Virus record (IMG/VR): IMGVR_UViG_3300034072_001401
Coordinates: 1-40,367 of that record
Strand: one strand, 5' to 3'
Origin: a virus
DNA length: 40,367 nt
A model generated the notes under the pieces. That model saw only the letters and a program-made list of their open reading frames with translations, ran no database searches and was not told where the DNA came from. Of the stretch, positions 33,455 to 35,128 are shown piece by piece (positions within the stretch are counted from its first letter, which is position 1; each line of letters opens with the position of its first letter). The position numbers and the translations under genes were made by a program.

Positions 33455-33672
33455 GCGTCATCATCCCAGAGCCGACGCCACCAGAAGGACTGACGCCCGA
33501 GCAAGCCGAGGCGTGGGTCCTCGGCTTTCACCACGGCCAGATAACCGGCCCCGAAAGCCTCTACGTTATCACACCCTATGATGTCGATGATCAGGCTGAC
33601 CTTTACGAAGCATGGGCCGACGGTATGGACGCGGCCGACACGGTCAGATGGTCGCACAAAACCGATAATTGA
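33451..33672 (+). CDS. 73-residue protein after integrase
   Basis: From ATG 33451 (ATGA overlap): MSVIIPEPTPPEGLTPEQAEAWVLGFHHGQITGPESLYVITPYDVDDQADLYEAWADGMDAADTVRW. Acidic. LTPEQAEAWVLGFHHG and LYEAWADGMDA resemble repeated helices of small phage proteins where Trp-x-x-Gly recurs. Last gene of the operon; its stop lies within the first integrase arm-type repeat. No known function. Confidence 0.65.
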   Translation: MSVIIPEPTPPEGLTPEQAEAWVLGFHHGQITGPESLYVITPYDVDDQADLYEAWADGMDAADTVRWSHKTDN

Positions 33673-33691
33673 CACAAAATTTGGCACAAAA
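33668..33691 (+). repeat. Left integrase arm-type repeats
   Basis: ATTGACACAAAA (33668-33679) and TTGGCACAAAA (33681-33691), two direct copies of a (G)(A/G)CACAAAA motif about one helical turn apart. The first is repeated exactly on the far side of the core at 33876-33887. Likely Int arm-binding sites. Confidence 0.65.
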
Positions 33692-33726
33692 GGCCGAATA
33701 ATCCTTTTGTTTCAACGCTGTCCGTG

Positions 33727-33769
33727 AAGATTAGAAGTCTCGTGCTCTATCCAGCTGAGCTAAGGGCGC
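33727..33769 (-). other. attP: attP core: 5' half of tRNA-Arg(UCU)
   Basis: Read on the minus strand, the 43 bases give an intact tRNA 5' half. It has a 7-base acceptor strand GCGCCCT, TA, a complete D-arm (GCTC AGCTGGATA GAGC), A, anticodon stem CGAGA, loop CTTCTAA with anticodon TCT, and four bases of the 3' anticodon stem (TCTT), after which pairing fails. No T-arm follows, so it is not a functional tRNA alone. It sits 55 bases after the int operon and is flanked by arm-type repeats. The crossover is probably in the anticodon loop. Confidence 0.88.
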
Positions 33770-33801
33770 GCGCAACGGAAGCGGCGGAAAGCCGTGGTTT
33801 T

Positions 33802-33830
33802 CGGGTAGGCGCGGGGATAGCGAGTGTCAA
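33802..33830 (-). promoter_or_regulatory. Candidate promoter for the tRNA restored at integration
   Basis: Minus strand: perfect TTGACA (33830-33825), 17 bases, then TACCCG (33807-33802), with the tRNA 5' end 32 bases further. The -10 is weak, but place and direction fit a promoter that would drive the hybrid tRNA-Arg after integration. Confidence 0.5.
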
Positions 33831-33866
33831 CGGAAACGGAACACAGCGGCAACGATTGGCGATGTG

Positions 33867-33936
33867 TGGCACAGGATTGACACAAAACGTGGCACAAATC
33901 GGCGCGTGTGGGAGAGAGCGCGGCCCGTTTGACACA
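33867..33936 (+). repeat. Right integrase arm-type repeats
   Basis: TGGCACAGG (33867-33875), ATTGACACAAAA (33876-33887), TGGCACAAA (33890-33898) and TTTGACACA (33928-33936), all in the same direction as the left pair. They match arm sites flanking a tyrosine-integrase core. Confidence 0.65.
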
Positions 33937-33962
33937 CCAGCAGCCCGTGGCATGATGCTGCT

Positions 33963-34229
33963 ATGTGGGACTGGCCATTATTCGCCGCGATAGCCATCGG
34001 CATAGGGCGAGCCGTCGAGCGCGCCAGGCCCGATGCTCCACCTGACCCGATATTGGCAAAGGCGTTGATCCTCGCCTGGTGGTTGGCAGCGGCTGCGTTT
34101 CAGGCAGACACGATCGAGAGCTTTGCAGTGTTTGGGCTGGTGCCGCTGGGCGCGTACAAGGTTGCTAACGTGTCGACGGCCGCAGCGCTGGAGCTCTGGA
34201 AGCGGCTCAGGATCGGCGGTCTGGGCTAG
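33963..34229 (+). CDS. Small membrane protein next to attP
   Basis: 88 residues: MWDWPLFAAIAIGIGRAVERARPDAPPDPILAKALILAWWLAAAAFQADTIESFAVFGLVPLGAYKVANV. Two or three hydrophobic segments with a charged loop. No ribosome-binding site is evident before ATG 33963, so start and even coding status are uncertain. It is the first forward gene beyond attP and belongs to the accessory block. Confidence 0.5.
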   Translation: MWDWPLFAAIAIGIGRAVERARPDAPPDPILAKALILAWWLAAAAFQADTIESFAVFGLVPLGAYKVANVSTAAALELWKRLRIGGLG

Positions 34230-34299
34230 GCATTGGGCACCGAGCAGCCTGTCAAGTGTCGGCACCGGGAATCTCTCCCCTGGCTTATCCCCACGAATA

Positions 34300-34314
34300 G
34301 AACATTTGTCGAAC
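34300..34314. promoter_or_regulatory. LexA-box-like site (alphaproteobacterial type)
   Basis: GAACATTTGTCGAAC is GAAC-N7-GAAC, the reverse of the GTTC-N7-GTTC direct repeat bound by alphaproteobacterial LexA. It is intergenic, 169 bases before the Cas2/SinR-like gene, and contains TTGTCG that could be a -35. One such match somewhere in 40 kb is expected by chance; its intergenic place raises its value. Confidence 0.5.
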
Positions 34315-34356
34315 GGTGGCGCTTCCCGAATCGTATCGCACCCCGTAAAATGCAAA

Positions 34357-34383
34357 TGGCCGGGGTGAGCTAGACCCCGGCCA
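34357..34383. terminator. Ten-bp hairpin between LexA-like site and Cas2/SinR-like gene
   Basis: TGGCCGGGGT (34357-34366) pairs with ACCCCGGCCA (34374-34383) over a 7-base loop. No T-run follows on the forward strand; on the minus strand ATTTGCATTTT follows. It may be a leader attenuator or a weak leftward terminator. The rest of the 253-bp gap (34230-34482) shows nothing else clear. Confidence 0.45.
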
Positions 34384-34482
34384 CATTGCTAACCACCGGG
34401 TAGGGTGGGTGTGATCACGGGTAGCTTTTGCGCTCTCCGATGATTCGCGTCAACCCGTCCCGGCAACACAGGTAAGACGAAA

Positions 34483-34749
34483 ATGAGCATGTATCTTGTT
34501 GCCTATGATCTCAGGCAGGCTGGCCAGAATTACGACGGCCTGGTCGAGCGGATGAAGTCGCTCGGCGCATGCCAGCACCTGCAGCAGTCTGTCTGGGCGA
34601 TTGAGTGGGGCGGCGGTTCAGTAGCGTTAGCACAAGCGCTCCACCCCTATATGGACGCGAATGATGAACTGCTCGTCACGAAGCTGACGCCAGACACTGC
34701 ATGGCTCGATTGCAGCAAAGCCAACGGATGGCTCGCGGCCAACCTGTGA
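34483..34749 (+). CDS. Cas2-like / SinR-family small protein
   Basis: 88 residues. MYLVAYDLRQAGQNYDGLVERMKSLGACQHLQQSVWAIEW, then ALHPYMDANDELLVTKLTPDTAWLDC: ferredoxin-like beta-alpha-beta-beta-alpha-beta order with the Tyr-Asp-Leu strand, Gln-Ser-Val-Trp, and Asp-x-Asn-Asp-x-Leu-Leu-Val-x-(K/R)-(L/V)-Thr of SinR-type Cas2-fold proteins. No CRISPR array or cas1 is present, so it is a stand-alone member, perhaps a nuclease or RNA-binding toxin-like protein like VapD. A GGTAAG-like site precedes ATG 34483. Isolated in the accessory block under a LexA-like site. Confidence 0.78.
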   Translation: MSMYLVAYDLRQAGQNYDGLVERMKSLGACQHLQQSVWAIEWGGGSVALAQALHPYMDANDELLVTKLTPDTAWLDCSKANGWLAANL

Positions 34750-34798
34750 ACTGAAGTCGCTGGCGCGGGGCCCCCTCTGCGCCAGCGGCACCAGCTCG

Positions 34799-35128
34799 AT
34801 GCCACCACCCGATCGCACAAAGATGCTCGCGCTCGCCGCGCTATGGCAGACGGTCCAGAAGGCCGAGGCAGAGCCGTGCAAGCTCGGACCGGACATCAGG
34901 CTGGCAATGATCGTGCTCGAAGGCCTGGGAGCCGGGCGCGAGGATCTGGTCAGGCTCTGGCGCCATCTGCGCGACCCGATGGAGACGGCGGCCAGCGACC
35001 ACCTGCGCAAGATCGTGCGACGCTCCTGGGGTGACAGCATCATGCGGACGATCTGCCGATCGGTCGGGGTAAGGGTAGATGACCCTGAGGTCGAGCGGCT
35101 GATCAGAGGCTATGGGGTCGGGGGCTGA
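34799..35128 (+). CDS. Hypothetical helical protein in accessory block
   Basis: 109 residues; ATG 34823 is an alternative start. LALAALWQTVQKAEAEPCKLGPDIRLAMIVLEGLGAGREDLVRLWRHLRDPMETAASDHLRKIVRRSWGDSIMRTICRSVGVRVDDPEVERLI: mostly helices, weakly basic. No ribosome-binding site stands out and no family is recognised. It follows the Cas2/SinR-like gene by 49 bases in the same direction and may share its promoter. The 83 bases up to the convergent ImmA-like stop contain only a weak AAGGGT/ACCCTT hairpin. Confidence 0.55.
   Translation: MPPPDRTKMLALAALWQTVQKAEAEPCKLGPDIRLAMIVLEGLGAGREDLVRLWRHLRDPMETAASDHLRKIVRRSWGDSIMRTICRSVGVRVDDPEVERLIRGYGVGG

Follow-up and report, generated by a model that had tools for sequence, protein, structure and literature searches.

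A phage attachment site that carries the 5′ half of tRNA-Arg(UCU) and, probably, a promoter for the restored gene

The integrase gene and attachment site of the phage

We analysed virus record IMGVR_UViG_3300034072_001401 over its full length of 40,367 bp (hereafter the window). The two ends of the window share a 99-bp repeat and the record is, therefore, a circular genome. Its genes include those for terminase, portal, tape measure, primase and beta clamp, and its closest phage records are the 'Microcystis phages' Mae-JY04 and Mae-JY28. The window encodes a tyrosine integrase (Table 1) in which alignment revealed the invariant residues R192, H288, R291, H314 and Y323; the hallmark of PF00589 is a Phage_integrase catalytic domain with conserved R...HxxR...Y. 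The protein is 84–89% identical to the integrases of related loci L005–L009.

The core of the phage attachment site (attP) starts 273 bp after the integrase stop codon and reaches from base 1 of a tRNA, through the anticodon loop, into the 3′ anticodon stem. A reading of this DNA made from the sequence alone had recognized here a 43-bp match to the 5′ half of tRNA-Arg(UCU); indeed, we found the match to be 100% identical (E about 2e-20 in the region search, far above chance). The same block, at 97.6% identity, is present in Mae-JY28, and it recurs at the prophage junctions of L005, L008 and L013 (see below). No complete tRNA was detected in the window, either by ARAGORN or at the Rfam gathering threshold.

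The arm of attP away from the integrase carries a candidate promoter, TTGACA and TACCCG separated by 17 bp, on the strand of the tRNA half and with a gap of 32 bp between TACCCG and the tRNA 5′ end, exactly as the sequence-only reading had described it. A GTTCCG block lies ahead of it and might, speculatively, be a site for Xis, for another recombination factor or for an activator. TGTGNC repeats are found on both arms and, judging from their sequence, are probably arm-type integrase sites; the window's TTGACAC looks much like the TGTGTCAA arm repeat in inverted form. The promoter-like and the recombination signals sit within ~130 bp of each other.

Table 1. Features of the integrase and attachment region of the window
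Feature	Position	Strand	Basis
Tyrosine integrase gene, 356 aa	32384..33454	+	PF00589 (E=1e-25), PF24624; phrog_1 integrase (E=1.2e-58)
TGTGNC repeats, integrase-side arm, matching those of the other arm	33672..33694	-	Sequence and repeat match
attP core, nt 1-43 of tRNA-Arg(UCU)	33727..33769	-	100% match to sphingomonad tRNA-Arg(TCT) gene
Candidate -10 box, TACCCG	33802..33807	-	TA invariant in 8/8 arms; arm alignment
Candidate -35 box, TTGACA	33825..33830	-	17 bp from -10 in 8/8 arms
GTTCCG block	33837..33842	-	6-8 bp ahead of -35 box in 8/8 arms (alignment)
Tandem TGTGNC repeats ~10 bp apart, non-integrase arm	33861..33899	-	Direct-repeat search; invariant TGTG columns in arm alignment

Integration into tRNA-Arg(UCU) read from relatives

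The window is a free circular genome in which only attP is readable, so integration was read from relatives. In L005, which by its record name comes from an isolate genome, and in L008, whose integrases are 88% and 85% identical to that of the window, the phage ends at the same tRNA half and is followed by host DNA, which contains a promoter and a divergent gene of the VUT family (queuosine precursor transporter; the name was taken from an annotated Sphingomonas match). The displaced 5′ half, together with the host promoter and the transporter gene, is also seen in L118. The opposite junction is found in L013, which shares its source metagenome with L008: there, a complete tRNA-Arg(UCU) is preceded by the phage arm of the window; complete tRNAs restored behind phage DNA are seen in L121, L132 and L134 as well.

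The sequence-only reading had proposed to compare the prophage ends with the empty site, and the relatives allowed this comparison. Genome G387 (locus L024) has an empty site, with an intact tRNA-Arg(UCU) behind its host promoter and the same VUT gene (protein 98.7% identical); it is identical to the host flank of L005 over the 59 bp upstream of the tRNA. A second intact tRNA-Arg(UCU), which according to the same reading would make the issue moot, is absent from G387, the nearest host genome: the gene is single-copy among 41 tRNA genes, and the remaining arginine anticodons are ACG, CCG and CCU. By the standard decoding rules AGA is read only by the UCU tRNA, and the host tRNA hit by integration is probably essential. 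As the best named match to the site region of G387 is a Sphingomonas record, we infer that the hosts are sphingomonads. A close integrase was not found in the genus of G387 (9 genomes), nor did an integrase search of 385 genomes of the class return a match at E<=1e-70.

Genomes of the same bacterial family also hold whole prophages, whose integrases belong to the same integrase family but are more distant. The displaced half lies at the integrase end in all of them, and the full tRNA is about 40 kb away in G458 (Arg-UCU), about 39 kb away in G557 (Arg-CCU) and about 5 kb away in G755 (Arg-CCU). In each, the displaced 5′ fragment is upstream of the restored tRNA and in the same orientation, with the integrase gene between them, which is the arrangement of 5′-fragment islands in the Islander collection. 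Together, the junctions of L005, L008 and L013 and these three prophages show that, in the relatives, the crossover takes place in the 5′ block common to phage and host, that the host promoter is moved away with a useless 5′ half, and that the tRNA is made whole again at the far end; they bear out the attP polarity, and the separation of the host promoter from the restored tRNA, that had been predicted from the window.

For the window phage itself, we propose that the integrase would recombine with the one tRNA-Arg(UCU) gene of the host, inside its anticodon loop and in an uncommon, reversed polarity, the 5′ half of the tRNA travelling on the phage arm away from the integrase. After integration, the host promoter would be left driving a non-functional 5′ half, pointed at the 3′ end of the integrase gene, and the 5′ half from the phage would join the host 3′ half at the other end of the prophage. 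The host's only gene for one arginine tRNA would, in that event, be left dependent on a candidate promoter carried by the phage.

The tRNA half of the window might instead be a relic of an earlier integration site that the phage does not use. Mae-JY28 could be cited for this, for it retains the same tRNA-Arg half despite having an unrelated integrase with a tRNA-Thr 3′ half adjacent. Phages with 84–89% identical integrases, however, sit exactly in tRNA-Arg(UCU) (L005 and L008), and the more distant prophages of G458, G557 and G755 integrate in the same manner; we regard a relic as extremely improbable.

Several observations were made around these sites. In Mae-JY28 (L010, 10370-10604), a 45-bp 3′ part of tRNA-Thr(GGU) lies just past the unrelated integrase, and some 150 bp further on comes the 5′ half of tRNA-Arg(UCU); homology to the window ends at the core of the latter, as would be expected from a swap of the integrase module at the att core. 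In L013 (9875-11889), the restored tRNA-Arg(UCU) is directly followed, on the same strand, by another integrase gene that differs from the first (613 aa; DUF6538 plus phage integrase). This tRNA may be sandwiched between two elements, having received its promoter and 5′ half from one of them. Hairpins on the integrase side were considered as terminators of the stranded host transcript and rejected, as only those of L005 and L008, and not that of the window, beat shuffled sequences (z about -3).

Reversed polarity across the integrase family and in known systems

Elements that integrate into tRNA genes substitute, in the textbook case, the 3′ end of the gene and spare the host promoter. The integrase subfamily of the window reverses this polarity as a rule, and a promoter borne on the phage arm apparently solves the problem that results. 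In a tree of 31 integrases, the att site is visible for seven members of the window's subclade, and in 7/7 it contains the 5′ half of a tRNA (Arg-UCU, Arg-CCU or Pro-UGG). L145 has an Arg-CCU half and Mvi-Yong1342-1 a Pro-UGG half. One group (98/96) unites the relatives whose 3′ half is on the integrase side; the 5′-half carriers are on the other side of the tree, alongside three relatives with a 3′ half on the far arm. Reversed polarity is, on these observations, a trait of the window's integrase subclade.

Our comparison further suggests that the core is usable in either orientation, giving a 3′ half one way and a 5′ half the other, and that the reversal originated from a captured half on the arm away from the integrase combined with a near-symmetric anticodon core. 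In one part of the tree (L195, L178, L151, L148 and L154) the far arm varies between the 5′ and the 3′ tRNA half. A more distant relative, in a Hyphomicrobium MAG, carries the 5′ half of tRNA-Lys(UUU), and the intact tRNA-Lys is on a separate contig. Upstream of that intact gene (L222, in G001) we noted GTTCCGG and TTGTGG/TAATGC at 17-bp spacing; this upstream region is consistent with the restored end of the prophage whose displaced half is on another contig, in L003.

The mode of integration is that of a recognized minority class, the 5′-fragment islands. The sequence-only reading had rightly called such elements a minority: in Islander, 5′ fragments occur in 159 islands and 3′ fragments in 3760 (PMC4383910), and PMC8371274, in a passage that cites Williams 2002, describes 5′-half cases as seldom met in bacteria. 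The Islander 5′-fragment islands resemble the relatives of the phage in that a tyrosine integrase element separates a displaced 5′ fragment from an intact tRNA, the 5′ part of which derives from the element (PMC4383910). For these islands, however, the text gives counts only and mentions no promoters (PMC4383910). In the phage relatives the polarity follows an integrase subclade, and the arm has a conserved promoter-like element.

A parallel in what happens to the promoter is archaeal. In pTN3-like integrases, attP is likewise a tRNA 5′ half, and the restored tRNA is severed from its original promoter (PMC5495485; PMC8371274). The integrase gene of pTN3 contains the att site and is disrupted; expression of the tRNA is reportedly from the integrase promoter (PMC5495485; PMC8371274). 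Unlike the pTN3/SSV type, the window phage has its att site past an intact integrase gene, and not within a disrupted one; its tRNA would be at the other end of the prophage, behind a separate candidate promoter. Pseudomonas phage D3, with an integrase about 29% identical, shares the tyrosine integrase, the crossover in a tRNA gene and the restoration of that tRNA. In D3 and in the group with the half on the integrase side, however, it is the 3′ part that lies beside the integrase, and the host promoter is retained. In the tRNA-dependent lysogeny of mycobacteriophages such as Fionnbharth, the lysogen depends on tRNA expression supplied by the phage (PMC10865867), as it would with the window phage. 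Phages of the Fionnbharth type, however, bring a complete tRNA as a substitute and leave the host gene unrepaired (PMC10865867), whereas the window phage encodes no complete replacement tRNA and would rebuild the host's.

What is new is a bacterial integrase subclade with systematic 5′-half polarity and a conserved promoter-like element in its attachment arm. Literature searches returned no bacterial case of a described element-borne tRNA promoter, a result that is not proof of absence. As a separate observation, L191 (3001-4175) has a complete tRNA-Leu(UAA) ~80 bp after the gene of a more distant integrase and on the same strand; if the element provides the 5′ half of this tRNA, the arrangement would be akin to the archaeal case of expression from the integrase promoter.

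A conserved promoter-like element in the phage arm

A promoter model was trained on 71 upstream regions of host tRNA genes, which gave the form TTG(A/C)C, 17 bp, TAnnGG. All eight arms compared have TTGAC(A/G) (TTGCGC in Mvi-Yong1342-1) exactly 17 bp before an invariant TA, a form that agrees with the promoters learned from the host. The -10 hexamers are TACCCG in the window, Mae-JY28 and L013, TACCGG in L121, TAACGA in L134, TATCGC in L132, TACCGA in L145 and TAGGAA in Mvi-Yong1342-1, where TTGCGC-17-TAGGAA is a host-style variant. Among the five diverged TTGAC arms, pairwise identity was 0.93 in the -35 box and 1.00 in the TA, and fell to 0.33 in the spacer. The element lies 6–8 bp from the GTTCCG block and 8 to 32 bp from the tRNA, the 17-bp spacing being constant throughout. 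A constant spacing with a freely changing spacer is what would be predicted for a promoter.

The strength of the individual sites is another matter. A sigma-70 consensus scan of the window did not call the TTGACA/TACCCG site, and TACCCG matches TATAAT at 2/6 bases; relative to the host form, the window fits in the -35 box and the spacing, and partly in the -10. With the host-tRNA model the site scored 4.0 bits, the best in its arm and above 91% of 110-bp stretches of the phage, and below most host tRNA promoters (median 14.1 bits, lower quartile 11.9), including the 12.4 bits of the host gene's own promoter. Other arms reached 6.6 bits at best, and two were below zero. In 8/8 arms, nevertheless, the best-scoring site faces the tRNA at 17-bp spacing and outscores the reverse strand. 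Control arms (integrase side or 3′ half) scored mostly lower, although the integrase side of L113, at 4.1 bits, was level with the window. Shuffling of single arms gave p values of 0.04–0.16, and of 0.5–0.7 for two arms (Fisher's combined p 0.04). As the scan and the single-arm scores are weak, the promoter claim rests on conservation and not on any single sequence. The proposal of the sequence-only reading that the phage supplies a promoter, thus, stands insofar as the phage arms have kept the TTGAC-N17-TA element, while TACCCG turned out to be weak by the standard of the E. coli consensus and also by that of the host tRNA promoters. The conserved element is a probable carried promoter and, going by the model scores, it is possibly weaker than the host promoter that it replaces.

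The TTGAC...TA blocks might, alternatively, be recombination sites, bound by the integrase at arm-type sites, by an excisionase or by a bending protein, and no promoter, with the tRNA transcribed weakly or from elsewhere. The blocks do adjoin the tandem TGTGNC repeats and the conserved GTTCCG, which is also present in L151, a conventional relative with the 3′ half; TTGACAC, which the window shares with L013, is the arm motif in inverted form; and the scores of the promoter model are modest. However, four other arms have TTGACG, which disrupts the arm motif and retains the -35 box, so that TTGACAC as a mere inverted arm site was judged unlikely. Also, the 17 bp to the TA are constant while the distances to the arm sites and the core vary; the Mvi arm changes to TTGCGC/TAGGAA, like host tRNA promoters; and two 3′-half relatives, where no promoter is needed, lack a comparable site. 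An exclusive role in recombination is, on balance, quite unlikely.

The restored tRNA might also be transcribed by read-through from upstream phage genes. The tape measure, portal, terminase, endolysin and tail genes of the window are on the minus strand, directed toward att, and such structural and lysis genes could be a source. Yet about 1.4 kb with plus-strand candidate genes only (33963-35128) intervenes between them and att, and in a lysogen late genes are expected to be silent, as is established for phages. The -35/-10 arrangement is, moreover, retained in unrelated genomic contexts, including the 5-kb element L134. We consider read-through very unlikely.

Transcription of the restored tRNA would, therefore, most likely start from the arm promoter, TTGACA-17 bp-TACCCG, about 25–32 bp before the tRNA 5′ end, a proposal based on the conservation and position of the element. 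The reading as a whole, namely that this is the attP of a temperate phage that integrates with reversed polarity into a single tRNA-Arg(UCU) and that the restored tRNA is most likely driven by the arm promoter, is one in which we have good confidence. Two questions become testable: how a single-copy tRNA survives the replacement of its promoter, and whether a prophage adjusts decoding in its host by this route. The sequence-only reading had placed the host tRNA under phage control, and its expression may be regulated rather than merely sustained; regulation of the arm promoter by Int, Xis or a GTTCCG-binding factor is speculative. A promoter among Int and Xis sites could even report the state of recombination: in the free phage it would read through the tRNA half and into the integrase-side arm, yielding an antisense RNA against the end of int; once integrated it would be separated from int and drive the only tRNA-Arg(UCU) of the host, and binding of Int and Xis at excision would silence the tRNA. 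This we find doubtful; if true, prophage state, antisense control of the integrase and decoding of AGA in the host would be directly coupled.

A good sigma-70-type match (TTGACA-16-CATGAT, with TG ahead of the second hexamer) is present on the plus strand of the window at 33929-33956. It faces away from the tRNA half, toward small plus-strand open reading frames at 33963-34229 and 34483-34749, the latter with a match to phrog_1090.
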